A stretch of 40,369 bases of DNA from a virus, in IMG/VR virus record IMGVR_UViG_3300025154_000214, positions 1 to 40,369 of that record. The stretch is one strand, 5' to 3'. Below the pieces are notes generated by a model. That model did no database searches. It had not been told where the DNA came from and saw only the letters and a program-made list of their open reading frames with translations. Position 1 is the first letter of the stretch. Each line of letters begins with the position of its first letter. Both the position numbers and the translations under genes were made by a program. Positions 7,042-40,369 of the stretch are shown one piece after another.

Positions 7042-7072
7042 TATCAGGAGCCTTCTTTGCGATGGGATCTGC

Positions 7073-7111
7073 ATGTCAGTGTGTCAGTGTGTCAGCTTGT
7101 CCGCTTGTAGG
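7073..7111. repeat. Repeat E
   Basis: gtcagtgtgtcagtgtgtcag and related cttgtccgcttgt. It contains the stop codon (7092-7094) of the predicted frameshifted tail chaperone, in the same AGCTGACAC context as the stop at 1995. Confidence 0.8.
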
Positions 7112-7244
7112 CTTGGAGCGGCGGACTGCACAGCACAAAATACAGCACGTCCACCGCGCGCATTTTCATCACGACGGCCTGCTTGGTGATGTCGCCTCCG
7201 CTGGCGAGGCTGCTGAGGTGCTCCCAGAAATCTCCGCCTTTCCA
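7092..7244 (-). CDS. Predicted -1 frameshift extension of the tail assembly chaperone
   Basis: In the -1 frame relative to the chaperone gene, an open reading frame with protein-like composition continues through the 3' end of that gene and beyond it to a TGA at 7092. Near codon 127 the sequence is T GGA AAG (7238-7244), close to the lambda G/GT slippery site G GGA AAG. A slip there would give a 176-residue product with a 48-residue C-terminal extension starting GGDFWEHLSSLAS, whereas the zero frame ends in a low-complexity Ser/Ala/Pro tail. Chaperones directly upstream of the tape measure in many long-tailed phages use such a slip. The P-site re-pairing here would be poor (GGA to TGG), so this is a prediction only. 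Confidence 0.45.
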   Translation of the reverse strand, partial: WKGGDFWEHLSSLASGGDITKQAVVMKMRAVDVLYFVLCSPPLQAYKRTS

Positions 7245-7630: not shown

Positions 7631-7804
7631 CTACTCCCTTTCCCTATATCCTATGGGGAAAGGGCCGGGGTTAGGGGTCTGAATCAGGAGCCGTGTTGAT
7701 TATGGCTCCGGGGTTAGGGGTCTGTTCTCTTCTACTCCCTTTCTCCACTCTTCCTCCTTCCCCCACGTGGTGGGGGAAGGTTGGGATGGGGGTTGAGGGT
7801 TAGG
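7631..7804. repeat. Repeat A cluster, tail tube/chaperone gap
   Basis: Three repeat-A units in tandem with variant centres (CTATATCCTATGG and CCACGTGGTGG) fill this gap. The minus-strand exit provides the AAAGGGAG upstream of the chaperone start. Confidence 0.85.
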
Positions 7805-10229: not shown

Positions 10230-10279
10230 TTTCTCCCTTTCCCTATATCTTATGGGGAAAGGGCCGGGGATAGGGGTCC
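10230..10279. repeat. Repeat A
   Basis: Canonical copy with CTATATCTTATGG centre, between the DUF1320 gene and the 162-residue upstream gene. Confidence 0.85.
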
Positions 10280-10764
10280 TACTCCGCCGCCGGAACCTCG
10301 ACCTGCTTCTCAATCAGGTACGCCTGCAAATCGGCGCGGCTCACGCCGTGCACCTTTTCCAGCCCCGCGCTCTTCGCCAGTTCCTGCAGCTGCGCATACG
10401 GCACCTCATCCCATTCTGTCCCCTCCACTTTAGTGGGGGGGATTTTAGGGGGGGTCACCTCAGACGTGCCCACTTCCACCGGCGCCGGCACTGCCACCGG
10501 AGTAACCTCCATCACCGTCGCCAAAACCGGCGAGGGATCCCGGTTGATCTCCACCAGCTCGGACTCGGCAATCTGCCGCGTCCAGTCCACCGTGTGGTAC
10601 TTCGAGATTTCTTCCTTCTGCTCCGGAGTCACTTCCTCACCCGGCAGCAAATAGAACACGCCCTTCCCGCCGGGATGCGACAGCTTCTCGCCGGCCGTCG
10701 TCACTCCCCGGAGGTAGGCATTCCCCAGGCGGTTCGCGCAATAAATAAACTTGATCGGTTTCAT
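10279..10764 (-). CDS. Hypothetical head-region protein with a C-terminal HeH/LEM-like segment
   Basis: Protein of about 161 residues from ATG 10764 (MKPIKFIYCANRLGNAYLRG), corresponding in position to Mu gp35. The last 40 residues, AQLQELAKSAGLEKVHGVSR and on to AYLIEK, resemble the helix-extension-helix (HeH/LEM) modules often found at the C-terminus of phage gp35-like proteins. A Gly-tract form of repeat A (10420-10458) is read in frame as TPPKIPPTKVEG in the Pro/Val-rich linker. The SD is weak. Confidence 0.6.
   Translation of the reverse strand: MKPIKFIYCANRLGNAYLRGVTTAGEKLSHPGGKGVFYLLPGEEVTPEQKEEISKYHTVDWTRQIAESELVEINRDPSPVLATVMEVTPVAVPAPVEVGTSEVTPPKIPPTKVEGTEWDEVPYAQLQELAKSAGLEKVHGVSRADLQAYLIEKQVEVPAAE
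10420..10458. repeat. Repeat A variant inside a gene
   Basis: cccctccactttagtggggggg followed by a second G-tract, translated in frame in the linker of the gp35-like protein. Confidence 0.7.
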
Positions 10765-13153: not shown

Positions 13154-13175
13154 GATCTATTCTCCTTTTCCTTAT

Positions 13176-13235
13176 TTGTCATCCTGAACGCAGTGAAGGA
13201 TCTCCACCCCCCTGCTTAGCTTAGAATGTGTTTTC
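13176..13235. repeat. Repeat B (GTCATCCTGA...GAAGGATCTC)
   Basis: Imperfect palindrome gtcatcctgaacgcagtgaa then ggatctc and a conserved tail gcttagaatgtgtttt. It lies in the gap 5' of the decoration gene. Confidence 0.85.
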
Positions 13236-14429: not shown

Positions 14430-14448
14430 GAATGCTCTATCCTTGAAT

Positions 14449-14540
14449 TGTCATCCTGAACCGCAAGCCTGCGGTGAAGGATCTCTTTTGTTCCTCCTCC
14501 CTTTCTCCACGTGGTGGGGAAAGGGCCGGGGATAGGGGTT
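14449..14540. repeat. Repeat B followed by repeat A
   Basis: A short repeat B (gtcatcctgaaccgcaagcc, gcggtgaaggatctc) abuts a repeat A copy with CCACGTGGTGG centre. Together they occupy the whole gap between the head morphogenesis and protease genes. Confidence 0.85.
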
Positions 14541-15924
14541 AATTCTTCCGGTACAGCAGCACCCCTCTGCGGTAGCTATCCGCATTCCCGCTCACGATCT
14601 TCACGTCCTTCACGTCGCCCATCACCTTCACAATCACACTCCGCACGCCGTCATCGGTATCGAACGTCTGCACAAAAGCGTAATCGCCGCCCGGCTGTGT
14701 CCAGATTTCTGCCGGTCCTTTGATCGTCGCCTCGATAAATTCCGCCGCCGCTTTATGTCCCGCCTGCTGCAAAGATGTGATCACCGTTTCCGGCACCGCC
14801 CGCATCTGTCCCTGCACATCTCGTATCTCTCCGAGACTCCCTTTCCCTACATCCTGTGGGGAAAGGGCCGGGGATAGGGGCCCGAGTCCATAGTCTTTCG
14901 GGAACCGTTCAATGAACTTTTCGCGCTTCGCCCATGCGGCCAGGCTCTCGATCAGCGCGGCATTCTGTCCAAACCCGATGTCAATTCCGCCCGGAATCGT
15001 GCCACCAGTTTCCGCCGCGCGCCGTTCCTGTTTCAAAGAAAAATCATCCCATTCCACCACACTGCACCGGCAGTTGAAGCCGTTCGGCGGAAACCACACC
15101 GTCCACACCGGATCATCCTTGCGGTAAATCTTGCCTTCCATTTCCGCGTGCGCCGGCCGGACGCGATCATCGCCCACGGTCACATATTCCCAGTACGGCA
15201 GTTCTTCGATCGCATCCATGCCTTCGTAGAACTTGCCCGCATTCAAGGCCGTCTGAATATTCGTGCGGTACACCATCTCCAGGTGCACCGGGCTCGGATT
15301 GCTCAGCAGCTCATAAGCTCTGTCCTGAAAATCCGTGAACGTCCCGCCGCCACTTAGCACCTTTGCCAGCTCTTCCTTCAGCTCGTCTAAGATACTCTGC
15401 TGGTCCACGTGCGCCATCACGAACGCCCGCTGCCGGAAGAAATCCAGTTCCCAGTTCCGTCCCAGATACTCTTCCACAATCGCATCACTCGCCGCCACCA
15501 CCATTGCATTTGTCATCCTGAACCGCGTCTTCGCGGTGAAGGATCTCTGCCCCCGTGCGCTGCTTAGAATGTGTTTTCGCCGCCTGCGAACACTCAGAAT
15601 CCCCGCATTCGCCGCCAGCGCCATCGCACCAAACACGCCATTCCCCACGCCACCGAGATACCCGCGCGGCAGCGTCGCTTCGCGCAATAGTCTTGCGAAA
15701 GCCTCCGCGCTGTCGGCTTGCCGCACCGTCCTCTGCAATTCCTTCGCATAGTCCGTGTATGCATCGGCACCTTGTTCTAACGATTCTTCAAAGAGCGACT
15801 CGGCAACTTGCTGATCTTTTGGCAGACTGCTCGCCGCGGTTCCCTTTCTCCACGTGGTGGGGAAAGGGGCAGGGATAGGGGTCGCCCGCTGCTGATCGTT
15901 CGGCAGACGTGTTCCTTTCCCCAC
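14539..15924 (-). CDS. Head morphogenesis protein, Mu F / SPP1 gp7-like
   Basis: Minor head protein of up to 461 residues. The family core lies near residues 210-310: VYRTNIQTALNAGKFYEGM, YWEYVTVGDDRVRPAH, then WFPPNGFNCRCSV. The gene carries three in-frame repeats: repeat A at the N-terminus (TPIPAPFPTTWRKG), repeat B near residue 115-140 (KHILSSARGQRSFTAK and on to FRMTN) and repeat A near residue 340 (PLSPALSPQDVGKG). The N-terminal region is a tandem duplication, LPNDQQ...KG and LPKDQQ. The real start is uncertain; 15924 is a GTG within a repeat. Confidence 0.82.
   Translation of the reverse strand: MGKGTRLPNDQQRATPIPAPFPTTWRKGTAASSLPKDQQVAESLFEESLEQGADAYTDYAKELQRTVRQADSAEAFARLLREATLPRGYLGGVGNGVFGAMALAANAGILSVRRRRKHILSSARGQRSFTAKTRFRMTNAMVVAASDAIVEEYLGRNWELDFFRQRAFVMAHVDQQSILDELKEELAKVLSGGGTFTDFQDRAYELLSNPSPVHLEMVYRTNIQTALNAGKFYEGMDAIEELPYWEYVTVGDDRVRPAHAEMEGKIYRKDDPVWTVWFPPNGFNCRCSVVEWDDFSLKQERRAAETGGTIPGGIDIGFGQNAALIESLAAWAKREKFIERFPKDYGLGPLSPALSPQDVGKGSLGEIRDVQGQMRAVPETVITSLQQAGHKAAAEFIEATIKGPAEIWTQPGGDYAFVQTFDTDDGVRSVIVKVMGDVKDVKIVSGNADSYRRGVLLYRKN
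14837..14883. repeat. Repeat A inside the head morphogenesis gene
   Basis: Copy with CTACATCCTGTGG centre, read in frame as PLSPALSPQDVGKG between the core and the C-terminal domain. Confidence 0.9.
15513..15580. repeat. Repeat B inside the head morphogenesis gene
   Basis: Complete copy including the gcttagaatgtgtttt tail. On the minus strand it encodes KHILSSARGQRSFTAK followed by TRFRMTN without a stop. Confidence 0.9.
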
Positions 15925-17463: not shown

Positions 17464-17497
17464 TTCATCCTTCATCCCTCATCCTTCATCCCTTCTT
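17464..17497. repeat. Repeat D (CATCCTTCATCC tract)
   Basis: catccttcatccctcatcc and continuing. On the minus strand it follows the TerL stop and consists of GGATGAAGGATGAGG, carrying SD-like AAGG and ATG in alternation. Confidence 0.85.
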
Positions 17498-19023
17498 CAC
17501 AACGCCCCCACAAAACTCTCCTTCTTCTCGCCCACCCGTTCCGCCGGCCGCGCTTTCACCGCCGCGCGCATCGGCTCCAGATGAGTCAGCGCCATGTCCA
17601 GCGCGTCCGGTCCGTCGTCCGCCATGCCCGGACTCGGGTAATAACAGAGCTGCTCAATCAGCAGATTCTGATCACTGTGCCCCGGCATAAAGTAAATCCG
17701 TCCCGCTTCCGCGATCGGCTCAATTCTCCGGATCCGGATTTCCTTCGGCAGTCCCTGCTGGTCAATATATTTCATCGGCGGCCGGAAGCCGAATCGCGGC
17801 CACAGCTGATTGATCAGATCCTTGTACAAGAGCGCAAAGCTGATCGCTTCCAGCAGCCAAAGGAACGGTTTTAACAACCCGTGCAGCGCAAACATTTTTT
17901 TCAGGAGACTCAGCGCGCTGTCGTGGCGGATCCAGGCGTGCCGGAGATAATAGTTCTGCGTCGGCAAATGCTTCGAGACCACGAGCAGCGCCTTGTAATC
18001 CGTCGTCTCTTTGCTCTTCACCGAGGGATCAATCGCCCCCACCGTCACCAAGCCCTCCCGCGGTAATTCAGACTCCGTATAGGGCTGAAACCACTCCCGC
18101 CGGAACATTCCGCCCGCCATCTCGGCCTTATGCAGGTACTCCTGATTGTAGGCCGTGCTGCCGATCTTCGCCCGTTGCGCCGCTAACCGCTCATCCGGCC
18201 ACACTTCCGGCCACACACTCCCACCATCGGGATTTTCTGCCGGATAACTTCGCCGCACGCATTGCGGCGGTTCCTGCCCGGTTTCGTAAGCCCACTCCGG
18301 ATCCAGCAGCATGTCCAGCGCGCTCTTCTGGTGCAGGCTCGTTCCCAGCCAGATCGCTTTACCGCCCGCCGCCATCGTATTCAAAACCGCCTGCAGCCAC
18401 CATTTCAAAAGCTGCCGCACGCGCTTCGGATTGCGCACCAACTCTTCGTCTTCTAAGTCATCCGCAATCACCAGGTCCGGACGGTGCGCGCCTTTCTTCC
18501 GGCCACGAATCACTCCTCCCCGTCCCACCGGCAGCATCCACATTCCGGTCTTCAACCGGTAGCCGCGATCGTCGCTCCAGTCGGCCGTCTTCAGCTCGCC
18601 GAAGTCCTGAATGATTCTCTCGTTGACTTCGAACTCGACCGCAATCGCCTGCACCGTTTCCGCCGCCGTCTCGTCGCTCTTGCCAATGAACAGCGCGAAA
18701 TGCTTCTGCTTGAACACTCCGCACCAGGCCACAAATATCTGTGCCAAAGTCGTCTTTGCAAATCCGCGCGGCAGGCGGTCCACTTCCACCTCGTCCCACG
18801 CCTGCCAGCTCGCGACCAGTTCGTAGTGCATCGCCGCCGGCGCGGCGCTCATGTAGTGCGGGAAATAGGTTTTGCCAAAGAACCAGAAATCCTTTTCCGC
18901 GCGCCCCACCCGCTGCTCGCGCTCCGCTTCCGGCAGCCGCGTCGCACTCCGCCGGATCCGCGCCGCTAATTGCTCAATCCGCGCCAGCGCCTGTCGATCA
19001 GTGAGCTTCTTCGGAATCTTCAT
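17497..19023 (-). CDS. Terminase large subunit (TerL)
   Basis: DNA-packaging motor and nuclease of 508 residues from ATG 19023. The ATPase half shows an atypical Walker A PRGFAKTT (residues 85-92) and Walker B VIADDLED (185-192). The nuclease half has VGAIDPSVK, the first acidic residue of the RNase H-like site. KWWLQAVLNTMAAGGKAIWL is typical of Mu-like TerL. A GTG at 19086 overlapping the TerS stop would start a longer form that reads through a repeat-A copy as TPIPGPFPTTWRKG; I prefer 19023, which has GGGAGAAGAG upstream. In Mu the enzyme packages by headful from the phage end. Confidence 0.88.
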   Translation of the reverse strand: MKIPKKLTDRQALARIEQLAARIRRSATRLPEAEREQRVGRAEKDFWFFGKTYFPHYMSAAPAAMHYELVASWQAWDEVEVDRLPRGFAKTTLAQIFVAWCGVFKQKHFALFIGKSDETAAETVQAIAVEFEVNERIIQDFGELKTADWSDDRGYRLKTGMWMLPVGRGGVIRGRKKGAHRPDLVIADDLEDEELVRNPKRVRQLLKWWLQAVLNTMAAGGKAIWLGTSLHQKSALDMLLDPEWAYETGQEPPQCVRRSYPAENPDGGSVWPEVWPDERLAAQRAKIGSTAYNQEYLHKAEMAGGMFRREWFQPYTESELPREGLVTVGAIDPSVKSKETTDYKALLVVSKHLPTQNYYLRHAWIRHDSALSLLKKMFALHGLLKPFLWLLEAISFALLYKDLINQLWPRFGFRPPMKYIDQQGLPKEIRIRRIEPIAEAGRIYFMPGHSDQNLLIEQLCYYPSPGMADDGPDALDMALTHLEPMRAAVKARPAERVGEKKESFVGAL

Positions 19024-19026
19024 CTC

Positions 19027-19072
19027 TTCTCCCTTTCTCCACGTGGTGGGGAAAGGGCCGGGGATAGGGGTT
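19027..19072. repeat. Repeat A, TerS/TerL junction
   Basis: Copy with CCACGTGGTGG centre. Its minus-strand exit gives GGGAGAAGAG just before the TerL ATG, while the reading frame from the coupled GTG stays open through it. Confidence 0.85.
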
Positions 19073-19082
19073 GAATCTTCAA

Positions 19083-19721
19083 TCACTTTCCCGCATTCAT
19101 CGCATACACCGTGAACGGACTCAGAATCTCGCTGAACTGGTCCAGCAGATCTTTCTTCCCCGTCGTCTCCAGGAATGACTTGAACAGCTCCAGCACCCGC
19201 ACCAGGTGCGAATTGAAAAACGAATCGCCGCGCAGCAGTTCAATGGCTTTCGCGCCTTTCGCCACGTCGTCAAAGAAATTCGCCGGCAGTTTCTTGCTCT
19301 GCCGCGCATATGCCTTCGCATTCTCTATCAGCTGCGCCAGCATCAGCGCCACGTCTTCCACGTGCCCCTGCGGACTGCTGCGCAGCATTTCCCTCTGCTG
19401 TACCCACCGCCCGTCGCGGCACCATTTCTCCAGCGCCGCGAGCGAAACCGGGAGCAGCTTGCCGATCTCCGACAACGGTTTGTGCTGTTCGACAAAGATC
19501 AATCTCGCCTGGTCATTGAACTGGTGCCACTTCGGCGAATGCCGCGCCACAATCCGAACGTCCGCTCCCTTCTCCACATGGTGGGGAAGGGCCGGGGTAG
19601 GGGTAGTCACCTTGCGAGGCACCGGCCCCGGCTTCCGCGGCGGCCGCCAGCCCGCTTTCAATACCGGCCGCTTCGGCTCCCGGGATGGGCGTTTACGTTT
19701 GGCGGTTGACTTTTTTTTCAT
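19083..19721 (-). CDS. Terminase small subunit-like protein
   Basis: Protein of 212 residues directly before TerL. After a basic N-terminus it has a helix-turn-helix-like segment (FVEQHKPLSEIGKLLPVSLA then LEKWCRDGRW) typical of small terminases that recognise the packaging start, and a helical C-terminal half. A repeat-A copy is translated in frame as TPTPALPHHVEKG at about residues 41-53, between the basic tail and the HTH. ATG at 19721 has GGGAG six bases upstream. Confidence 0.78.
   Translation of the reverse strand: MKKKSTAKRKRPSREPKRPVLKAGWRPPRKPGPVPRKVTTPTPALPHHVEKGADVRIVARHSPKWHQFNDQARLIFVEQHKPLSEIGKLLPVSLAALEKWCRDGRWVQQREMLRSSPQGHVEDVALMLAQLIENAKAYARQSKKLPANFFDDVAKGAKAIELLRGDSFFNSHLVRVLELFKSFLETTGKKDLLDQFSEILSPFTVYAMNAGK
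19567..19608. repeat. Repeat A inside the small terminase gene
   Basis: Copy with CCACATGGTGG centre, translated without a stop between the basic N-terminus and the HTH of TerS. Confidence 0.9.
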
Positions 19722-25589: not shown

Positions 25590-26281
25590 GCTTCAGCCTT
25601 CCGTCTCCGCACATTCACCGCACTCCCCGGATCCCGCGCCGCCCGGATAATCATCTGCTTCACCGCTTCCGTCACTTCCCAGTGCAGTCTCCTCGGAAAC
25701 CGCTCGCTGTCCCACGGAATCACAAACCGTCCGCTCTTTGGGTCTTTGGGTCTTTGGGTCTTTGGGTCTTGCTCGTCCCCTCCCCCGGACACTTCCCACG
25801 CTTCTTTCGGCGGCGGCTTCGGCATCATCCGCGAAATCAACTTGCCGAGCTTTTCCTGCCACTCCTCCGGCCCCCACAATACCGTCGCCTGGATCCGGAG
25901 CCAGTGCCGCGCCCGCTCGCTCGCATACTCGCTCCCGTCATCCTCCACCCGCCGGTGCTTCTTCAGCCGTTCGACCCGCTGCTCGTCTGTTTTTAGCTTT
26001 TCAGCCTGTCGGCTTTTCAGCTTTTCGCGGCTGAGCACTTCCAGCATCCGCCATAGCTCAACTGCGCTCATTCCCTGCATGCTCTCGCGCTTGTCTGCCC
26101 GGCAACTCCCGGCCACCAGCCGCCGCGTCTCGTCCGTGTACCCCAACTCCTTGCACAATATGAAAATCCGAGCCCGCAATCTCCCCTCCGCGCCCGCGGG
26201 GGGGACGGGGGGGGTCTGAACCGAGGACCCACTTCGCGATGTTTTCCGCCCCGTCGGCACTCTCCTCGCCGCCCCGATCAT
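25538..26281 (-). CDS. gemA: GemA/gp16-like regulatory protein
   Basis: Protein of 247 residues belonging to the Mu GemA (DUF1018) family: ARIFILCKELGYTDETRRLV, then MQGMSAVELWRMLEVLSREK near residue 75, and a C-terminal RWLRIQA/VLWGPEEWQEKLGKL-type region. In Mu, GemA modulates host gene expression. ATG 26281 overlaps the upstream stop as ATGA. Four repeat-derived stretches are in frame: VQTPPVPPAGAEG, KLKSRQAEKLK, DPKTQRPKDPK and the C-terminal TPIPGPFQTP. The first 18 residues are repeat-free but unlike other GemA proteins. Confidence 0.78.
   Translation of the reverse strand: MIGAARRVPTGRKTSRSGSSVQTPPVPPAGAEGRLRARIFILCKELGYTDETRRLVAGSCRADKRESMQGMSAVELWRMLEVLSREKLKSRQAEKLKTDEQRVERLKKHRRVEDDGSEYASERARHWLRIQATVLWGPEEWQEKLGKLISRMMPKPPPKEAWEVSGGGDEQDPKTQRPKDPKSGRFVIPWDSERFPRRLHWEVTEAVKQMIIRAARDPGSAVNVRRRKAEAQTPIPGPFQTPSQPSP
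25735..25772. repeat. Repeat G (TTTGGGTC tandem) inside GemA
   Basis: Four copies of tttgggtc in tandem, translated on the minus strand as DPKTQRPKDPK. A related tract lies at 27389-27436. Confidence 0.85.
25990..26032. repeat. Repeat E-like tract inside GemA
   Basis: ttttcagcctgtcggctttt and on to cagcttttcgcgg, an AGCYTKTCRGC-type tract encoding REKLKSRQAEKLK in a helical linker. Confidence 0.6.
26182..26218. repeat. Repeat A variant (Gly-tract) inside GemA
   Basis: cccctccgcgcccgcggggggg then a second G8 tract. Translated as TPPVPPAGAEG; the long G runs would be prone to slippage or sequencing indels. Confidence 0.7.
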
Positions 26282-29845: not shown

Positions 29846-29866
29846 TCCCCAGCTCCTTTCCCTGAC

Positions 29867-29962
29867 TTGTCATCCTGAGCGCAGCGAAGGATCTCAGCCC
29901 CCGTGCCGCGCTTAGAATGTGTTTTATCCTTTCCGCCTTCCGCCTTCATCCTTCATCCTTTG
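29867..29962. repeat. Repeat B followed by repeat D
   Basis: Complete repeat B (gtcatcctgagcgcagcgaa...gcttagaatgtgtttt) abutting a repeat D tract (ccgccttcatccttcatcc). The latter encodes the end and TGA stop of the M15 peptidase gene. Confidence 0.85.
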
Positions 29963-30634: not shown

Positions 30635-31330
30635 TCAAAACCCATGCTGCGCAAACTGCTGCTTGATCTTCTCAATATAGCCCTCATACATCCGCCGGTC
30701 CGCCGCGCTCAAACTCTCCTGCGTCAGTATCCCTTCGTAAATCACGATCTGCTGCTCGCAGCTGATTACCCATTCCGGCTTCACCTTATTCACCGGCAGA
30801 TCCATGTCCCCGAAGAATTCCTGCGCCTCGAGCCGCTCGCGCGACTTTTCTTCCTGCCATTTCGCTTCCCGGTGGTCGCATAATTTCATGTCCCACCGGC
30901 TGGCGCGCTGTCCCTTTTCCGCGGTGAGATAATACAGCAGGTTCCGCTTGTCCCGCGCCGTCGCGTTCAGATCCTCGATGGCGAACTTCAACGGCCAGCT
31001 ATGCAGAATCCCGCCCAGCACTCCCCGCCAATGGATAAGTTCCGACGGCTGAAAATCCGTAGGCCACGCGTCCCGGCCCGTCAACCTCGCAAACACTTCC
31101 TCTATCCGCCGGATCTGATTCGCATGGCTGTGCTGCATCAAATAATCTTCCCCGGCCACGAACTCTTTCAGCTTCGCCAGCGCCACCCGGATCTCACCGT
31201 TCACCAGCATCTCTACCACGTGCCACAGCGCCGGATCAGCAAGCGAGCGGGACGAAGGACGAGACTTGCGGCTGGCCTCATCCTTCATCCTTCCGCCTTC
31301 ATCCTTTCGGTCGGCCTCACCTTTCCGCAT
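30635..31330 (-). CDS. Hypothetical early protein
   Basis: Protein of up to 231 residues, helical and charged, with no recognised family. It is placed after Gam in the early operon. The N-terminus (RKDEGGRMKDEASRKSR) is repeat D, so the ancestral start is unclear: ATG 31330 overlaps the Gam stop by 14 bases, but the repeat itself offers further AAGG-ATG pairs. The folded part probably starts near ADPALWHVVEMLVNGEIRVA. Confidence 0.6.
   Translation of the reverse strand: MRKGEADRKDEGGRMKDEASRKSRPSSRSLADPALWHVVEMLVNGEIRVALAKLKEFVAGEDYLMQHSHANQIRRIEEVFARLTGRDAWPTDFQPSELIHWRGVLGGILHSWPLKFAIEDLNATARDKRNLLYYLTAEKGQRASRWDMKLCDHREAKWQEEKSRERLEAQEFFGDMDLPVNKVKPEWVISCEQQIVIYEGILTQESLSAADRRMYEGYIEKIKQQFAQHGF
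31276..31313. repeat. Repeat D at a gene start
   Basis: tcatccttcatccttccgcc then ttcatcc. On the minus strand it is AAGGATGAAGGCGGAAGGATG, with SD-like AAGG followed at about seven bases by ATG, inside the start of the 30635 gene. Confidence 0.85.
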
Positions 31331-31868
31331 TCGGCTTCCAACTGAACTGCTCCCGCGACGCCAGCTTCACGCCTAACCGCTCCAGCGTCTCTTCGTCGAG
31401 CTTCTTCAGCTCGCTGAGCCGCAGCTTCGGCTTGCGCTCGATGCACGCTTCGATCTTCTCGCGCAACTTCCCCGACCGCGTGGAAAGCTCCAGGGTGATC
31501 ACCGCGTCCAGCAGCGATTCTGTGTCCACTTCCTCGCCCTTCGTCGTCAACAGAATCGGCGGGCCGCTCTTCCAAGACACCGTCACCGGTCCCACGATCC
31601 CCGATTTCTTCTCCCCGCAAATCTGATCGCGATGCGCTTCGCAGAGGGCTTCCGCCTGCGGCTCGAATTCCTCCAGTACATCCTTGTGCGGTTTGGCCGC
31701 CGTCTCAAATGCCTGATCGGCCTCGGTCTTCCGCTGGTTCCGGATCTTCTCGAATTCCTCGATCTTGATCCGCGCCGTCGCCAGTCTTTCAAAGAGCTTA
31801 ATTAATTTGCTAAAACCACTCTGTCGGCCTGTCGGTTTGTCGGACTGTCCGCTTCTTCCCTTTGCCAC
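31317..31868 (-). CDS. gam: Host-nuclease inhibitor, Mu Gam-like
   Basis: DNA-end-binding protein of 183 residues related to bacterial Ku that shields phage DNA from exonucleases. Features: a long coiled coil (residues 22-85) starting ERLATARIKIEEFEKIRNQR, a central strand pair (VTVSWKSGPPILLTTKGEEV), and the C-terminal LERLGVKLASREQFSWKP typical of Phage_Mu_Gam. The N-terminal GRSGQSDKPTGRQSG is encoded by a repeat-E-like tract. GTG 31868 has AGGA six bases upstream. Confidence 0.78.
   Translation of the reverse strand: MAKGRSGQSDKPTGRQSGFSKLIKLFERLATARIKIEEFEKIRNQRKTEADQAFETAAKPHKDVLEEFEPQAEALCEAHRDQICGEKKSGIVGPVTVSWKSGPPILLTTKGEEVDTESLLDAVITLELSTRSGKLREKIEACIERKPKLRLSELKKLDEETLERLGVKLASREQFSWKPNAER
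31820..31856. repeat. Repeat E-like tract at the start of gam
   Basis: tgtcggcctgtcggtttgtc followed by ggactgtccg, units of about 8 bases, translated as the hydrophilic N-terminus of Gam. Confidence 0.7.
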
Positions 31869-32593: not shown

Positions 32594-32669
32594 CCCCCTT
32601 TGCCTATATCCTATGGGGAAAGGGGGCCAGGGGGTTAGGGGTCTGAAAAGGGCCGGGGTTAGGGGTCTT
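32594..32669. repeat. Repeat A, double copy
   Basis: Copy with CTATATCCTATGG centre and a half-copy between the ATPase gene and the 89-residue gene. Confidence 0.85.
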
Positions 32670-33937
32670 CACGCCACCTTCCGCACCCGCTTCAATTCCG
32701 TGTGCAGCTTCTTCACTTCCCGGTGAATCGCCGATAATTCCAGATCCGTCGGATCCGACGCGGTGATCAAAATCTGATGCACCCGCGAGGGCCGCAATTC
32801 CGTCGCTTCCGCCAGCCCGGCCCAGTCTAAATCATAGTTGAAATCCGCCAGCATCAGCAGGATCTTGTCCATCGTCACCTGCTGGGTCTTCGTCAACCGC
32901 GTGCGCGTCTCGTCAAACAACGCCGCCTGCCCGGCCGCAAACGGCAGGAGGAATTCCTTCACCGCTTCCTTCAAGCCCGCCACTCTCGGATCCTGCCCGG
33001 CCAGCAATCTCCGCAGCACGTACTTGTCCACCTTGATCTGCTTCTCGCCCTTGAGCCACGATAAGATTTCCGGTATCGTTTTCCCGGCCAGCAGCCGCAA
33101 CGATCCGAGACTGCTCATCTGCCCGCAGTGCTTCAACGCCAGTTCCTTCGAAACCGGCAATTCGCCGATCTCCACCGCCGCGCGTAATAATTCCGTCAGC
33201 ACGCGGTTTACGTCCTGCGGCCAGCGCACTGCGCCTGCGATCACGTTCAGCGCGTCCTTCGTCACCAGCTTGTTGATGTCCGCTCCGGCCCGCGCGCATT
33301 TAAAGGCCACATACTCCCGCACTTCCTCGCTCGACAAGCCGTGCATCCGCACGATTTCCGTCCGCAGCTTCACCTCGCGCGCTTCCAATAACTCCGCGTC
33401 TATCTGCGGATGCGCTAACACGATCACCGAGAGCAACCGCTCGTGCATCGCAAATCGGAGTTCCCGCAATCGTTTCAGATTCACTAAGAGCTGCCCCGGC
33501 AGCACGTGCCCGTCTTCCAATACCAGCACCACCTCGTGGCTCTTCGCATACTCGCCTAACAGCCGCTGCAACTGGTAATAGCGGCCATTCGCCGAACGCT
33601 TCACGTGCTCGCTGGAGCCCGAGGCTTTCAAGATCGCCTGGATCAAGGCTTCCACGATGTGCCCGATGCGCAGCTTTTCATAGGTCAAAGTAAAATCCCG
33701 CACCAGCAGCAGTTGCTTGCCTTGCCGGTGCGCTTCGTCGGCCAACAGATCATAGACCGTCGTCGTCTTGCCGCCGCCCGCCGGCGCGACGATCAAGAGC
33801 AGCTGCCGCTCGTTCACGCACTCGATCACGCTCTCCTGCACGTGCAACAGGTCGGAGGATTCAAACACGTCCTCCGCGCTGTTGATCGCCGTGTCGAAGG
33901 GATTGTATTTCAATCCCGCTTCTCTCTGCCAACTCAC
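32669..33937 (-). CDS. MuB-like AAA+ ATPase, transposition target selector
   Basis: Protein of 422 residues. An ExeA/MuB-type AAA+ domain has Walker A APAGGGKTT (residues 51-59) and Walker B around VVLVLEDGH, with a likely sensor segment LLSVIVLAHPQ. The N-terminus GLKYNPFDTAINSAEDVFES is typical of ExeA-like proteins. MuB binds target DNA and activates the transposase. GTG 33937 overlaps the transposase TGA and has AAGGAG seven bases upstream (leader AGGAGCTGGG); the ORF portion upstream of it is the transposase gene in another frame. The C-terminal third is longer than needed for the AAA core. Confidence 0.85.
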   Translation of the reverse strand: MSWQREAGLKYNPFDTAINSAEDVFESSDLLHVQESVIECVNERQLLLIVAPAGGGKTTTVYDLLADEAHRQGKQLLLVRDFTLTYEKLRIGHIVEALIQAILKASGSSEHVKRSANGRYYQLQRLLGEYAKSHEVVLVLEDGHVLPGQLLVNLKRLRELRFAMHERLLSVIVLAHPQIDAELLEAREVKLRTEIVRMHGLSSEEVREYVAFKCARAGADINKLVTKDALNVIAGAVRWPQDVNRVLTELLRAAVEIGELPVSKELALKHCGQMSSLGSLRLLAGKTIPEILSWLKGEKQIKVDKYVLRRLLAGQDPRVAGLKEAVKEFLLPFAAGQAALFDETRTRLTKTQQVTMDKILLMLADFNYDLDWAGLAEATELRPSRVHQILITASDPTDLELSAIHREVKKLHTELKRVRKVA

Positions 33938-35685
33938 CACCCAGCTCCTTGCTCTGCGGCGAGATCTTCGCCGCCGTAAATCTGTTCCCGCGCGCCCTCT
34001 ATCCACGCGGCTATCTCCTCCCGGTTTAACGTCCGGCCCAATAACTGATTCAGCTGTTCGCGTAGCGTCGGATATTTTTCGTTCAGCGCCAACAGCCCGA
34101 TGCCCAATTCCCGCGCCACCCACTTCTTCGCGTCAATCGGGTCCGCAAACCGCGCCGCTTCCGTAAACGGGCTCTCTTTCGATTCTTCCTTGTCCGCCGC
34201 GATGAACGGCACGACCTTCATCCTTCCGCCTTCATCCTTCATCCTTTCAGAATACGGATGCTGTGTGCGTCCCCACTCCCCGGCTTCGCGTGACTTCGCC
34301 GTGCGCTCGATCTCGGTCTCGCTCGCTCCCCGGAATTCCCCGAACTTATGCGCCCCCTGCCAGACCTCTGCTTCCACTCTCTGTCCCGTGATCTGCGATT
34401 CGATCACCACTGCTCCCCCCGCATTCCGATAGACAATTACCGTCTGGCTGCGGAACTCCAGCGGCACTTCGTAGATCACATTGTCCAGCGTCAGCAAACC
34501 ACTCCCATCCACCCGCCGCTTGAAGATCTTGTGGGCCGTCGCCAGGGCGTCATCCGCCGGAATCCGGGCCGGACTCCGGAACCCGGCCTGGTACACCGTC
34601 GCCCGCGATTCTGATGCGTAACGGTGCCCGTGCCTGGCCAACTCGATACAGCACTGGACGGCCATCCGGTTCACGTCCGACAATTTCCACTCGGGTTTTG
34701 AATCCGACAGAAACGCCGTTTCAAAATTCGATTTCACCGTGCGCCACTGCCGCTCGATCTTGCCCTTGGCGCGCGCATTATACGGCAGCGCCGTCTGTAA
34801 CTCGACGCCGACACCCATCTCTTGTGAGAGATAGGGAATGTTCTCGCTGTTCTTCGCGAAACTGCCGTTATCCACATAGAGAATATCCGGCAGTCCCCTT
34901 AGACAGAACTCCGGATCTAACCCCCTCCACATCTGGTCCAACAGCATCCGCAAACTCGCGCTGTCTTCTCCCGCCGCCACGAAATACTGAAAACCGAAGA
35001 CGCCGCTGTAATCGTCCACTAACCCGCCCATCCACAGCCGCCACCCGGCTTTCCTCTGGACTTTCGATAACCTCTCCCGCGGCGGCCGGCGCATCAATAA
35101 AAAATCGCCGTCGTCCAATTCCTGCACCACCTGCAAACTGGTCGCACCTGACACGTCGAACTGGTGCACCTGGTTCGAGTATTCCGCCTGGAAACGGTGA
35201 AACCCGCGCGGCACTTTCAACCTGAGCTTCTTCACCCACTGATTGTAATTCCGCACACTCAAAACCGGTCTGTCATTCTGAACACGATCATTCTGATGAT
35301 CGGCGTCCAGAACCTCTCGGGCTTCATCCTTCATCCTTCCGCCTTCATCCTTCAACCGAATCAGCCCGCACCTCGCCGCTTCCGTCAGCGCCGTCTCCGC
35401 ACTCGTCCATCGCCCGGCTTCGAAATCGCTCATCCGCGTCTGAATCGCGAACACCTGCTCGATCACCGGCTGCCAGTGATCGCTCTTTCGCATCTGTCCG
35501 GCATCGCTCCGCCGGGTTCCCCCGCGCGTGCGCGTAAACTTATAGTAGCTCCCCGGCCGCACGCCGAACTTCGCATACTCCGCAAACAGCCGGCGGCGGC
35601 CTCCTTTCAGATCCCGCGCCGGCAATTGCGCCAGCTTCGTCCGCAGCTCCGCATACAACAGCGTCAGATCATGTCGTTCAGACAT
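33934..35685 (-). CDS. MuA-like DDE transposase
   Basis: Integrase/replicative transposase of 583 residues. N-terminal helix-turn-helix region to about 105; catalytic core with candidate DDE residues Asp177 (QFDVSG), Asp272 (LYVDNGS) and Glu311 (AKGKIERQW), spacing 95 and 39; a beta-barrel region near 385-460; and a C-terminal helical tail that would contact MuB. Two repeat inserts are in frame: repeats D and C between HTH and core (residues 111-142, LKDEGGRMKDEAREVL onward) and repeat D near 479-491 (SERMKDEGGRMK). ATG 35685 follows CGGGATGACAA, the end of repeat B. It acts on the terminal sites at 14-58 and 40285-40329. Confidence 0.9.
   Translation of the reverse strand: MSERHDLTLLYAELRTKLAQLPARDLKGGRRRLFAEYAKFGVRPGSYYKFTRTRGGTRRSDAGQMRKSDHWQPVIEQVFAIQTRMSDFEAGRWTSAETALTEAARCGLIRLKDEGGRMKDEAREVLDADHQNDRVQNDRPVLSVRNYNQWVKKLRLKVPRGFHRFQAEYSNQVHQFDVSGATSLQVVQELDDGDFLLMRRPPRERLSKVQRKAGWRLWMGGLVDDYSGVFGFQYFVAAGEDSASLRMLLDQMWRGLDPEFCLRGLPDILYVDNGSFAKNSENIPYLSQEMGVGVELQTALPYNARAKGKIERQWRTVKSNFETAFLSDSKPEWKLSDVNRMAVQCCIELARHGHRYASESRATVYQAGFRSPARIPADDALATAHKIFKRRVDGSGLLTLDNVIYEVPLEFRSQTVIVYRNAGGAVVIESQITGQRVEAEVWQGAHKFGEFRGASETEIERTAKSREAGEWGRTQHPYSERMKDEGGRMKVVPFIAADKEESKESPFTEAARFADPIDAKKWVARELGIGLLALNEKYPTLREQLNQLLGRTLNREEIAAWIEGAREQIYGGEDLAAEQGAGW
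34217..34248. repeat. Repeat D inside the transposase gene (C-terminal)
   Basis: catccttccgccttcatcct tcatc, translated as RMKDEGGRMK in the linker before the MuB-contacting tail. Confidence 0.9.
35272..35360. repeat. Repeats C and D inside the transposase gene (N-terminal)
   Basis: Repeat C (gtccagaacctctcggg at its end) directly abuts repeat D (catccttccgccttcatcct). Together they encode about 30 in-frame residues between the DNA-binding and catalytic parts. Confidence 0.9.
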
Positions 35686-35813
35686 TTGTCATCCCGAAGC
35701 CTGTCTCTCTTTCATTTGTCATCCTGAAGCCATTCTTATGGCTGAAGGATCTCAGCTTCGTGGCTATGACCGGATATTCTGATGTCAGCATTTCAGCGTG
35801 TCCGCGTGTCAGT
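35686..35813. repeat. Repeat B (one and a half copies) and repeat E
   Basis: tttgtcatcccgaagcctgt and tttgtcatcctgaagccatt...ggctgaaggatctcag, then a repeat E tract (gtcagcatttcagcgtgtcc). They fill the leader of the transposase gene; the upstream gene stop lies in repeat E. Confidence 0.85.
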
Positions 35814-36149: not shown

Positions 36150-36431
36150 TCACTCCCTTCCCCTATAACTTATGGGGGAAGGGCCGGGGATAGGGGTCGG
36201 GAAGGCTGGGATGGGGTCGGGGAAAGGCCCGGGGATAGGGGTCTGCATCCGGCAGATATGACATCTGCAAAACCGGTTCTCGCCCCGGATGTTATTCCCG
36301 GTCTGCGCCACGACGTGCCCGCAGGTCAGCCGCACCTTTCTCCGGTACACCCGGCCGGTGCCCTTGTGCGACCAGTCCGACAGCACCTCGGTCACGATCT
36401 GCAACCGCCCGTGCTTGTGCCCGTAGCTCAC
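36150..36431 (-). CDS. Small zinc-finger-like protein
   Basis: Protein of 93 residues from GTG 36431, which overlaps the upstream TGA as GTGA. RKVRLTCGHVVAQTG followed by RFCRCHICRM gives a C-G-H plus C-x-C-x2-C pattern able to bind zinc. The remaining 30 residues (starting TPIPGPFPDPIPAFPTPIPG) are read-through of two repeat-A copies; without them the protein would end near residue 65. The longer ORF opening at 36653 overlaps the 36428 gene and is not used. Confidence 0.6.
   Translation of the reverse strand: MSYGHKHGRLQIVTEVLSDWSHKGTGRVYRRKVRLTCGHVVAQTGNNIRGENRFCRCHICRMQTPIPGPFPDPIPAFPTPIPGPSPISYRGRE
36154..36244. repeat. Repeat A, triple
   Basis: Full copy with ATAACTTATGG centre and two half-copies, translated as the C-terminus of the zinc-finger-like protein. 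Confidence 0.85.
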
Positions 36432-36732: not shown

Positions 36733-36883
36733 GTCATTCTGGACACCGCGTCTTCGCGGGAGTCCAGAACCTCTCGGGCTCTGACTTGGATTTTGGCTTT
36801 CCCCCTTCCCCTATCTGCTCCTTCCCCCTCTGCTCTTTCTCCCTTCCCCTATAACTTATGGGGGAAGGGCCGGGGTTAGGGGT
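36733..36883. repeat. Repeat C followed by repeat A cluster
   Basis: Repeat C (36733-36780, with cgcgtcttcgcggg hairpin) and then two half and one full repeat-A copies. Apart from a trailing repeat-C fragment (gtccagaacctc near 36890) the 199-base gap holds nothing else. Confidence 0.85.
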
Positions 36884-36905
36884 CAGGAGTCCAGAACCTC
36901 GGCAT

Positions 36906-37103: not shown

Positions 37104-37172
37104 CTTGTCATCCTGAAGCTCGTCTTCGAGCTGAAGGATCTCAGCCCCATTTCGCGCTTAGAATGTGTTTTC
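37103..37172. repeat. Repeat B between tRNA and the 36906 gene
   Basis: Complete copy (gtcatcctgaagctcgtctt, gagctgaaggatctcag, gcttagaatgtgtttt) about 40 bases after the tRNA 3' end. Confidence 0.85.
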
Positions 37173-37209
37173 CGTCTGACTTGGATTTCCCTACTTGCTT
37201 CCTTCTTCG

Positions 37210-37281
37210 TAGCGGGAGGAGGACTCGAACCTCCGACCTCGGGGTTATGGGCCCCGCGAGCTGCCGCTGCTCTACCCCGCA
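37210..37281 (-). tRNA. tRNA-Met(CAU), initiator type
   Basis: A 72-base cloverleaf: acceptor pairs 2-7 with 66-71, a U1-U72 mismatch, A11-U24 in the D stem, anticodon stem CGGGG/CCCCG with three consecutive G-C pairs (29-31 with 39-41), anticodon CAU (37247-37249), perfect 5-bp T stem with UUCGAGU loop, and discriminator A73. The unpaired 1-72, A11-U24 and GGG/CCC features are the bacterial initiator marks. Position 33 is C, not the nearly universal U. CCA is not encoded. It lies in the early operon between small phage genes. Whether it is functional or a captured, decaying host gene cannot be told. Confidence 0.9.
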
Positions 37282-37339
37282 TAACCAGATCTCCTGACCG
37301 TCCCCGGTGCCGAAGATCACCCGGGAGCCACCCGGACTC

Positions 37340-37792
37340 TTAGCCAAACAACGATTGAAACTCCGTCGCCGGCACAAACCCCTTCGACCGAATGAAGATC
37401 GTACCGTGCTCGCGATGAAGCCTGCTTATCACTGCGGCACGTGTGGCCTGCAGCGTGGTTTCAAGCATCTCCTTTTTGAATGCGTCCATGTCCTTTACAT
37501 TCTCTCTCCCATCGGCCACCTCCAGCAGGCGTAGTGCATCTCGCTTATTCCCGGCTTGCAGCAAAATCACAGCCTGACTGATCACCTGTTCACGCCTATT
37601 CGCCACCGCTCGCCAGTGCATCAAGATCAGCTCGATCTTGATTTTTCTGACCAATTGCCGAGGCCGGAGTTTTCGAAATTTGTCCGCTTCGCCAGCCCGC
37701 TCTTCGCACTCCGACGCTGAATCTTCGTCTCCAAAACGACGAAATTCCCGTGCCAGATCTCCGTACTCTTTCTTCCATTCCTTCCACTTCAT
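37340..37792 (-). CDS. Hypothetical early protein
   Basis: Helical, basic and charged protein of 150 residues (start MKWKEWKKEYGDLAREFRRF) with no recognised family; the middle (QAVILLQAGNKRDALRLLEV) looks TPR-like. ATG 37792 has GGAG eight bases upstream and begins two bases after the upstream stop, so the two genes are co-translated. Confidence 0.65.
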   Translation of the reverse strand: MKWKEWKKEYGDLAREFRRFGDEDSASECEERAGEADKFRKLRPRQLVRKIKIELILMHWRAVANRREQVISQAVILLQAGNKRDALRLLEVADGRENVKDMDAFKKEMLETTLQATRAAVISRLHREHGTIFIRSKGFVPATEFQSLFG

Positions 37793-37794
37793 CG

Positions 37795-38745
37795 TTATAT
37801 CTCCGATTCCGGCACCGCCGCCGCAAACAAGTGACTGTGATAGCGCGCCAGGTTCAAAAACTTAGGCCCGAATTCGTGACAGATCGCCGCCGCGCTGTGC
37901 ATGATTGGGTCGTCTCCCCGCGCCTCGAATTCCTTTTCCGTGCGCGGAATCAACCCGTCCAACACCCGGTAAATCTCCGCCAGTTCCTTGCGCAATTGCT
38001 CGATCCGTTCCTTCGACCGGTGCGCCTGCGCGTCCTTCTCCTTCACCGCTCTCAGTTCTTCCTCGAGCTTCTTTTTCTCCACCGTCAGACTGCCGATGAT
38101 TGCTTCTTGCCCGGCATTCATGTCCGACTCCAATCGGGCAATCATCTTCTGCTGCTCGTCCACTACCTCCGCCGCGTCTCTCTTCTCCTTCTTCAATCGC
38201 TTGTTCTCAGACATCAGATCCACCGCCAACTCGTTCACCACTTCCGACGGGGCCAGTTCTCTCCCGTCCGGCGCCACCCATGTTTGCTCGTCGAGCGCGG
38301 TGGAAAAATCATCCGGCGTCATCCGGTAAATCGCCGCCCGCACATGGACATTCAGATTCGCCACCGCATTCATCACCGCCTCGCCGTCGTGCCCGTTCGC
38401 CTGCGCGCTCTGCTGCAGGAGCAGTCGCTTCTCAGCTCGGCTCACCATCAGAAAAGCAGTGCGGGCGGGTAAATTGAATTCCGCCTTCGCATAATCCTCG
38501 AACCGCGTATACCCGCCCACCAAAAATGCCCGGGATTTCAGGATGAAGTAGAGCGCCTGCGCGCGCACATGCTCCGCGAGCACGAAATCATTCTGACATC
38601 GGATAAAAATGTCGATCATGTCCTGCGTGATCGTCCGGTGTTCCTGCGCGACCGCATCCCATACTTTTTCATCTATCGCCGCCATCGGCTTCGCGTTCGC
38701 CATCATCACCGCCTGCGGCTCCGTCTTCATTGGTTCATTCGCCAT
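37795..38745 (-). CDS. Early protein with DNA-binding-like N-terminus and long coiled coil
   Basis: Protein of 316 residues. Residues 30-125 are helical and contain YFILKSRAFLVGGYTRFEDY then AKAEFNLPARTAFLMVSRAE, similar in feel to ParB/DUF3102-type regions in phage replication proteins; 170-260 form a strong coiled coil (MSENKRLKKEKRDAAEVVDE). It is the second gene of the early operon. ATG 38745 has AGGAGA six bases upstream. The role is unknown; partition, replication or host-takeover are possible. Confidence 0.6.
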   Translation of the reverse strand: MANEPMKTEPQAVMMANAKPMAAIDEKVWDAVAQEHRTITQDMIDIFIRCQNDFVLAEHVRAQALYFILKSRAFLVGGYTRFEDYAKAEFNLPARTAFLMVSRAEKRLLLQQSAQANGHDGEAVMNAVANLNVHVRAAIYRMTPDDFSTALDEQTWVAPDGRELAPSEVVNELAVDLMSENKRLKKEKRDAAEVVDEQQKMIARLESDMNAGQEAIIGSLTVEKKKLEEELRAVKEKDAQAHRSKERIEQLRKELAEIYRVLDGLIPRTEKEFEARGDDPIMHSAAAICHEFGPKFLNLARYHSHLFAAAVPESEI

Positions 38746-38771
38746 CAGATTCTCCTAAGTTCAGTATCTTG

Positions 38772-38801
38772 CGACTGCGAAGTTTGCAGTCGTGTGGATA
38801 A
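38772..38801. promoter_or_regulatory. Hairpin with adjacent DnaA-box-like 9-mer
   Basis: CGACTGC and GCAGTCG form a 7-bp stem with a 7-base loop, followed directly by TGTGGATAA (consensus DnaA box on the minus strand). It lies in the 142-base leader between the Ner-like gene and the next early gene. It could be an attenuator or operator; the 9-mer may be chance. Confidence 0.35.
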
Positions 38802-38887
38802 CTCTCGTAAGTCTAATATTTGCGCTGTTCTTGTTTCTCCAACCCCGCCTCAGACTTGCTTTATCGCTTTTCTGATAGTATATTTTT

Positions 38888-39109
38888 TCACGCCGCGATT
38901 TTCGTGTGGTCGCCCCAGAAATCACCATACCGCACCCGCAGCCTCCTCGCGATCCGGCGCCGCACCTTCACCGTCTTCCGCTTCTCGTGGATCGCCAGAC
39001 TGATCACCGTCGGGCAACCGAAATCAGCGTAAGTCTTTCCGGCATTACGAATTAAAGCCTTCCGTCTCGCGATTCGCAGGTGTAATCTGTCTTCTTCTGT
39101 CAGCTTCAT
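38888..39109 (-). CDS. Ner/Cro-like small HTH protein
   Basis: Basic protein of 73 residues, first gene of the leftward early operon and divergent from the repressor, the position of Mu ner. The pattern GKTYADFGCPTVISLAIHEK, then VRRRIARRLRVRYGDFWG, resembles a lambda-repressor-type HTH ending in the VPxxxLWG-like motif of Ner and SfsB-type regulators. It probably represses the repressor and early promoters. ATG 39109 has no strong SD. Confidence 0.65.
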   Translation of the reverse strand: MKLTEEDRLHLRIARRKALIRNAGKTYADFGCPTVISLAIHEKRKTVKVRRRIARRLRVRYGDFWGDHTKIAA

Positions 39110-39200
39110 CTTTGACTATCTTGATAACTTTTTTCTCGACGCTGTTAAGTTAATACCATTTTCGATTGATGTCAATAGCAAAACAGATTACTCCTGATAG
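39110..39200. promoter_or_regulatory. Divergent early/repressor control region
   Basis: AT-rich 91-base gap between the divergent repressor and Ner-like genes. On the minus strand a consensus -35 TTGACA (39170-39175) is followed at 17 bases by TAACTT, a weak -10, giving a candidate early promoter. On the plus strand TTGACT (39112-39117) has no good -10 partner. TTAAGTTAA and related short dyads may be operators. Confidence 0.5.
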
Positions 39201-39806
39201 ATGTCCACCAATCCCGGCCTCAGGAGCCGTATCTCATTATTGATAGAAAAGTTAAGTATTAGTCAAACGCGCTTTGCACGTGAGGCTGGCGTCCCGCAGT
39301 CTCTTATTAATGATATAATAAATGGTAAGGCAACTGTAAGTCTGAAAACAATTAACGCAATTTGCAACCGCTATAAAGTCAACCCCACTTGGTTGGCGTG
39401 GGGCATGGGCGATATGTTCCTGACCGAAGAGGCACGGCAGCAAATCTCGCGAGCGGTTGCCTCCACCCTCGATGGCATTCAGCAACTCGGCAAAGAGATG
39501 GATCAGATGACCGTCGAACAGTACCTCGAATGGAGCGTCAGCCCCGAAAATTTCGACCGCCGCTACCCCGGCCTGGCCCCGCCCGGCTTGCAGCACCTGC
39601 TCTCTAATAAGGATGTCATGGCCCGCGCCTCACCCACCTCCGGCGAGTTGCACCTGGTCGCCGATATGATCAAGGCGCATCCGCAACTCTATCGGCACGC
39701 TTCCCCGGAAATGTTCCTCGAACTGATTGCCTCTTTCCGCCGGCAGCGCGCCGACGACATCACCCACCTGCTCACGGAAATAAGAAAAAATACGAGCCCC
39801 CTCTAA
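39201..39806 (+). CDS. Phage repressor, XRE/CI-type HTH
   Basis: Protein of 201 residues. The HTH covers about residues 10-60: SQTRFAREAGVPQSLINDII, then GKATVSLKTINAICNRYKVN and PTWLAWGMGDMF, the typical end of CI-like DNA-binding domains. The C-terminal half is helical and has no S24 peptidase motifs, so RecA-mediated self-cleavage is not expected. It runs opposite to the early genes, as does Mu c. The first 160 bases are much more AT-rich than the rest of the window. No clear SD precedes ATG 39201. Confidence 0.82.
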   Translation: MSTNPGLRSRISLLIEKLSISQTRFAREAGVPQSLINDIINGKATVSLKTINAICNRYKVNPTWLAWGMGDMFLTEEARQQISRAVASTLDGIQQLGKEMDQMTVEQYLEWSVSPENFDRRYPGLAPPGLQHLLSNKDVMARASPTSGELHLVADMIKAHPQLYRHASPEMFLELIASFRRQRADDITHLLTEIRKNTSPL

Positions 39807-39823
39807 GGAAGGAGATCATTCAG

Positions 39824-40168
39824 ATGACGTCTTACGGTTATGGTTTTTTGAGTTCCGTTTTTTTTGTCCTTGCTGGATGGCTGCTCTTGTTCTATTGGCC
39901 TCACAGCATTCAGGAACGAAAGAAGAGAGACAAGGAGGCGAAGGCCCAGGCCGACCGCGACGCCCTGCTGGCCGAGGTGAAAGCCCTGCGCCATCAGATC
40001 GCCGGTGAATATGCCCCGGAGCAGAGGGATCTTCAACCGGCAGCCCCGGCCGTTTTCACTCCCGAACCTCCTTCGGAAATTTCCGGCGCCAGCATCTTTA
40101 CCATCCTGCTTGTCTTCGGCCTCGTCATCGTCTTCATCGCAATCATGGTAGGACTCGCCACCGGCTGA
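39824..40168 (+). CDS. Two-TM membrane protein co-transcribed with the repressor
   Basis: Protein of 114 residues: N-terminal membrane helix (FLSSVFFVLAGWLLLFYWP), a charged coiled coil (residues 30-62), a Pro-rich linker and a C-terminal membrane helix (IFTILLVFGLVIVFIAIMVG). It starts 17 bases after the repressor stop with AAGGAG about ten bases upstream, so it is likely expressed in lysogens. Membrane proteins in this position often serve superinfection exclusion or phage defence; this is inference. Confidence 0.65.
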   Translation: MTSYGYGFLSSVFFVLAGWLLLFYWPHSIQERKKRDKEAKAQADRDALLAEVKALRHQIAGEYAPEQRDLQPAAPAVFTPEPPSEISGASIFTILLVFGLVIVFIAIMVGLATG

Positions 40169-40195
40169 TCTCTCACCTCTGTCGCAAAAATCAAA

Positions 40196-40243
40196 CGGCG
40201 GCTGATCGGGACTTTTGCACCCGCTCGCCGCCGCTCCTTTTCC
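40196..40243 (+). terminator. Possible terminator of the repressor operon
   Basis: CGGCGG (40196-40201) pairs with CCGCCG (40228-40233) and, inside, CGGG with CCCG, followed by CTCCTTTTCC. A moderately convincing rightward terminator after the membrane-protein gene. Confidence 0.45.
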
Positions 40244-40284
40244 TACCACGCAATTATTGCACAATCCCGCCAGTTCCTACCCCT

Positions 40285-40329
40285 CTCTTGGTTTCATTCC
40301 CGAACCTCCTTGATTTCATTCCCCCCACA
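40285..40329 (-). repeat. Phage left terminus (repressor side), terminal inverted repeat with two transposase sites
   Basis: Read inward on the minus strand from 40329 the end starts TGTGGGGGG. Two well-matched sites follow, GGGAATGAAATCAAGGA (40307-40323) and GGGAATGAAACCAAGAG (40285-40301), exactly 22 bases apart. They match the site at 42-58 on the other end. This is the arrangement of Mu-type ends, so the phage DNA most likely ends at 40329. Confidence 0.8.
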
Positions 40330-40369
40330 CCTATGCGGAGTTTTTGGCTGCCTATTACTTAGATCGGAA
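40330..40369. other. Flanking DNA and likely adapter remnant
   Basis: Bases 40330-40360 lie outside the inferred phage end and are probably host or other flanking DNA. The final nine, AGATCGGAA, equal the start of the common Illumina adapter and are probably not biological. Confidence 0.65.

Follow-up and report, generated by a model that had tools for sequence, protein, structure and literature searches.

The question raised by this locus is what a phage would do with a tRNA that carries the marks of a bacterial initiator and yet has C at position 33, where U is usual. The window, meaning the whole 40,369-nt stretch of DNA that was analyzed, is a Mu-like transposable phage. The reading favored here, with a probability of roughly 0.7, is that the gene is a functional early initiator tRNA of the tRNA-fMet type, which would allow this temperate phage to top up or replace the initiator pool of its host.

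ARAGORN places a tRNA-Met(cat) at 37209-37281 on the minus strand as the sole tRNA in the window, and Infernal matches 37281-37210 to RF00005 at full length (1-71) with 54.7 bits (gathering 29, E 3e-9). RF00005 is the only Rfam family matched in the window, and its score together with the full-length match excludes a chance cloverleaf. In RNAfold the complete cloverleaf of 37210-37281 is both the MFE and the centroid structure, with 1-72 unpaired; the fold z-score of -0.66 is uninformative because the tRNA sequence is rich in G+C. By parts, the 72-nt tRNA (37210..37281, minus strand) reads UGCGGGG UA GAGC AGCGGCA GCUC G CGGGG CCCAUAA CCCCG AGGUC GGAGG UUCGAGU CCUCC UCCCGCU A. The discriminator A73 is followed in the DNA directly by CGA, and so CCA is not encoded.

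Bacterial initiators are determined by a 1-72 mismatch, G2:C71, C3:G70, A11:U24, and the 3GC pairs (PMC7949028), all of which are present in the window tRNA and shared, along with the CAU anticodon, by Escherichia coli tRNA-fMet (partly PMC7949028). Here, the acceptor stem has a U1xU72 mismatch followed by the pairs G2-C71, C3-G70, and G4-C69, the D-stem contains A11-U24, and the anticodon stem has G29-C41, G30-C40, and G31-C39 in addition to C27-G43 and G28-C42. The gene is therefore confirmed as an intact initiator-type tRNA-Met(CAU), and the marks recognized at first pass (an unpaired 1-72, A11-U24, three G-C pairs in the anticodon stem, and CAU) are borne out by the sequence and supported by RNAfold. 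The departure lies in the anticodon loop, CCCAUAA, in which C32 and C33 (37250, minus strand) precede the CAU anticodon (positions 34-36; 37247..37249, minus strand) and A37, as read directly and by Infernal; C33, too, had been read correctly before. U33 is usual for tRNA-fMet without defining it. The E. coli tRNA, which has U33, C1xA72, an encoded CCA, and a longer D-loop, differs from the window tRNA in these respects.

The surroundings of the gene are those of a phage. A Mu-like gene set is present (transposase, MuB, Gam, methyltransferase, terminase, portal, MuF, protease, capsid, neck, tape measure, endolysin, and repressor), with MuA, MuB, and Gam accompanied by the Mu-type order of terminase, portal, MuF, protease, and capsid. 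On the minus strand lie the terminase large subunit (17497..19086; phrog_38, 3.5e-81), a Mu Gam-like end protection protein (31317..31868; PF07352, 1.3e-12), a MuB-like transposition ATPase (32669..34123; phrog_296, 7.7e-11, and AAA_22), and a MuA-like transposase (33934..35685; phrog_310, 6.8e-21). No terminal repeat was found in the 40,369-nt record. The tRNA sits on the early-gene strand between MuA and the divergent repressor side, a flanking that upholds its earlier description as phage-encoded and that, judged from gene order, would place it in the early region of a Mu-type genome. Upstream of it on the same strand, an ORF of 150 aa with no assigned function (37340..37792) ends at a distance of 58 bp. 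Farther upstream, also on the minus strand, are a 316-aa ORF with weak coiled-coil matches and no assigned function (37795..38745) and a 73-aa ORF (38888..39109) without a family match, whose position suggests a Cro/Ner-type regulator. The HTH repressor (39201..39806, plus strand; HTH_3, 1.1e-10; phrog_8, 1.7e-13) diverges from this early region.

This arrangement makes it highly improbable that the contig is a chimera in which a tRNA in host DNA was joined to a phage. The last 3.2 kb (37172-40369) is indeed free of the main dispersed repeats that are listed elsewhere in the window, as such a junction would predict, but other gaps between repeats are longer than this one, and the repeat families reach to about 39 bp from the tRNA, where a copy of families D9/D16 (37105..37171, plus strand) ends on its 3′ side. 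Moreover, a phage-type divergent repressor is found beyond the tRNA, as in the gene order of Mu, and for this reason host DNA at the end of a phage was likewise rejected as the source of the tRNA.

A MuA-based search for phage relatives gave no match in viral contigs, and a portal-based search gave a single 16-kb contig, identical over the compared stretch, that covers head and tail genes but not the tRNA. Among the window proteins tested, none had a strong match in the tRNA-bearing loci fetched, this contig aside. The MuA and portal searches brought up no related phage that has the tRNA locus, and no host genome carrying it was found either, so that neither of the outcomes named at first pass as refuting was seen. 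A single locus with no relatives found is what would be expected of a passenger, that is, a captured tRNA gene without function in the phage, and an unused gene of this kind would look identical to a functional one until it decayed. The lack of a same-locus relative, as well as of a promoter-like site directly before the tRNA, thus also counts against the functional reading. We nevertheless regard a passenger as unlikely, since no stem or initiator determinant is damaged and unrelated phages repeatedly carry a lone initiator tRNA.

The extent of this recurrence was not anticipated by the first-pass annotation, which had called initiator tRNAs rare cargo for phages. A complete scan finds the C33 initiator-type pattern in 77 other IMG/VR viral contigs, while its U33 version occurs in at least 120 viral stretches. 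In about 71% of the fetched viral stretches, C33 and U33 alike, the tRNA is the only one, and lone initiator tRNAs are thus frequent phage cargo. In several of the C33 contigs checked, the tRNA has typical phage neighbors, among them genes for terminase, portal, recombination, and integrase. The U-U mismatch at 1-72, remarked upon as a replacement of the usual C-A, is real, but UU, UA, and CA are all common in cleanly parsing viral initiators, which makes U1xU72 ordinary for phages.

Among isolated phages, C33 is found in Pseudomonas D3 and FBPa47 (Detrevirus) and in Janthinobacterium Donnerlittchen, the hosts of which presumably have U33 initiators. Three more D3 relatives, which are not counted among the C33 phages here, match the D3 tRNA at 98.8%. 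Like the window gene, the tRNA-Met of D3, FBPa47, and Donnerlittchen is of the CAU initiator type with 3GC, A11, and the loop CCCAUAA, although these phages differ in type from the Mu-like phage studied here. The D3 tRNA also differs in having C1xU72 and an encoded CCA, and D3 encodes further tRNAs, whereas the 3′ half of the Donnerlittchen acceptor parses uncleanly. Variovorax VBv52 and Stenotrophomonas QDWS359 likewise carry an initiator-type tRNA, but with U33 and C1xA72. Sinorhizobium phiLM21-like prophages carry tRNA-fMet as well (PMC12429752), and in these and similar phages the initiator tRNA is sometimes alone, as it is in the window.

The stem class C27-Y28/R42-G43 comprises 39 C33 and 97 U33 viral contigs (39/136 with C33), whereas the matches ending RGAGGTC in the sampled Actinomycetota comprise, by our count, 57 with U33 and, apart from the seed, 0 with C33; this comparison mixes unlike samples, the viral contigs being partly redundant and the cells belonging to one phylum, and its Fisher p, which lies at about 1e-7 to 1e-6 when the cell number is entered as 55 or 50, is to be taken as an indication and not as a rate. 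The overall share of C33 among viral initiators can be put at roughly 12%, a figure scaled from the fraction of one stem class among the U33 matches listed. The C33 of the window is therefore real but not unique, and on these matches it appears not to be unusual among phage initiators.

C33 is also uncommon but real in cells. A pattern for C33 initiator-type anticodon arms, scanned over a species-level genome collection, matched at least 117 cellular stretches, and the carriers among the listed matches include Weissella/Leuconostoc relatives, Erysipelotrichaceae, Phycisphaerae, Patescibacteria, and DPANN archaea. These initiators share C33 and 3GC with the window tRNA but are chromosomal and mostly C1xA72. 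C33 has been noted in eukaryotic initiators (PMC9023262), and the first-pass annotation had described it as otherwise known from some of these, a restriction that is contradicted by the cellular stretches, the viral contigs, and the isolated phages. In the sampled Actinomycetota and Bacteroidota, C33 matches are confined to two seed genomes that were themselves picked for C33. A hidden phage might account for a C33 outlier in a cellular genome, but this is unsupported for the Bacteroidota locus L238, whose neighbors are cellular genes.

Among 30 C33 genomes searched whole, C33 is by our reading the single GGGNNCATAACCC match in 17, and in 2 more the only matches are two C33 copies, with the proviso that the GGGNNCATAACCC pattern would miss initiators with an altered stem. 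The C33-only state is clearest among the lactic acid bacteria in this set. Bacteria in which C33 is the sole GGGNNCATAACCC match probably initiate with the C33 tRNA. Several bacterial genomes, for example those of Weissella/Leuconostoc relatives, have no canonical initiator match other than C33, which seems to be the norm in a few bacterial groups, and so bacterial initiation would be able to use it.

Several planctomycete C33 initiators have U72 and no CCA, and one (L253) even has U1-U72. This lends some weight to a host-derived copy, in which the phage would have inherited both C33 and U72 from a host that itself has C33, a Phycisphaerae-like planctomycete for instance. On a small FastTree built from 263 distinct tRNAs after masking of position 33, however, the window tRNA has phage tRNAs of both kinds, C33 and U33, as its nearest relatives. 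In addition, none of the 11 planctomycete C33 genomes searched yielded the portal gene, and a palindrome core from the repeats of this phage has no match in 246 Planctomycetota genomes, which makes such an origin quite unlikely. Across 28 C33 genomes, the portal gene gave one weak match only, at 25% identity in a MAG, and the repeat-derived pattern was absent from 251 Chloroflexota genomes as well as from the Planctomycetota; in other viral contigs nothing exact was found. The same tree gives 43 changes of base 33 among phage tips against a mean of 49.6 with shuffled labels, a count that fits many separate gains of C33 in phages, with the caution that trees of short tRNAs are weak and 72-nt sequences resolve poorly.

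In the functional reading preferred here, the tRNA would be read as part of the phage early region; its place 58 bp after an early ORF, on the same strand and between the repressor side and MuA, fits early read-through. Host RNase P and 3′ nucleases would then process the transcript, which would receive CCA from the host, be charged by host MetRS and formylated by host MTF, and enter the ribosomal P site. In lytic growth or on induction of the prophage, it would thereby top up or replace the initiator pool of the host. The gene, its determinants, its place in a phage, and the recurrence of C33 in phage initiators are established here; each step from expression through charging and formylation to initiation is inferred, and so is the benefit. 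C33 seems compatible with these steps, as C33-only cells suggest that P-site initiation tolerates the loss of U33. A dedicated initiator had also been suggested to favor phage genes with GTG or overlapping starts, for which we find no support: one CAU initiator serves AUG, GUG, and UUG starts alike, and start codons were left out as evidence because the ORF starts are mechanical. Cells attacked by an initiator-cleaving VapC are partly rescued when they have additional initiator tRNA copies (PMC8522696), which shows that topping up the pool can be of benefit.

The same toxins, which cleave initiator tRNA in the anticodon stem-loop (PMC5408214), bring in the possibility that C33 itself is protective. 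Phage tRNAs have been proposed to evade anticodon nucleases via loop mutations (PMC10264068), and host tRNases that destroy initiator tRNA in the course of infection, VapC among them, might be inefficient on a C33 loop. As an explanation of the window gene, such an anti-nuclease variant is possible but tentative. The rescue by extra initiator tRNA, the enrichment of C33 in one stem class of phage initiators, and its seeming recurrence on the tree all agree with it, as do further loop changes in the initiators of other isolated phages (UUCAUUC in L318; position 38 in PaMx74 and DSS3_MAL1). On the other hand, U33 is retained in most phage initiators, C33 extends over whole bacterial groups in which phage pressure is not evident, and the host of this phage may itself carry C33. 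The phages of enterobacteria examined also generally avoid tRNA-fMet (PMC10264068).

The broader proposal, that phages repeatedly switch their own initiator from U33 to C33 under selection, keeping P-site function while escaping initiator-cutting host enzymes, and that the window gene is one instance, is doubtful. Between neutral tolerance of C33 and selection for resistance to initiator-cleaving nucleases, the former is a little likelier. In the literature found, phage loop mutations are described in general, but C33 in phage or bacterial initiators is not. U33 is treated as near-universal in tRNA. The repeated occurrence of C33 in phage initiators, together with bacteria that seem to be C33-only, makes two matters testable: to what extent initiation at the P site needs U33, and whether alterations of the anticodon loop help phages to survive nucleases directed at initiation.

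Several minor observations accompany these results. Dispersed palindromic repeats of the type CTCCCTTTCCCTATATCCTATGGGGAAAGGGCCGGGGATAGGGGTC occur between 4711 and 36898 of the window (for example, at 7634-7693, 10233-10292, 36153-36212, and 36839-36898). Their core, GG(G)[A/T]TAGGGG, has 29 copies, all on the plus strand, with none on a reverse-strand scan; the copies lie mostly outside the main genes and are unusual for a 40-kb phage. Another repeat, TTGTCATCCTGAAC...GTGAAGGATCTC, is found at 13167-13217, 14448-14498, 15510-15560, 29858-29908, 35716-35766, and 37105-37155, the last being the copy near the tRNA, and is followed by CTTAGAATGTGTTTT in four of the six copies. Short 8-bp tandem repeats of the TCAGTGTG and GTCTTTGG types are present at 1955-2016 and 7060-7113, and also at 25725-25799.

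Outside the window, L318 (MT838750.1), a record with a Mu-type terminase match, has its lone initiator-like tRNA-Met with the loop UUCAUUC and a weakened anticodon stem at 3460-3534. On an Azospirillum plasmid (NZ_CP032328.1; L419), an initiator-like tRNA-Met with U1xU72 at 1501-1575 is separated by about 513 bp from the nearby Qat anti-phage system. Lastly, Mesorhizobium phage vB_MseS-P1 (L422) has an unannotated initiator-like tRNA among repressor genes at 1500-1574, where it overlaps a CDS annotated as 'transcriptional repressor'.
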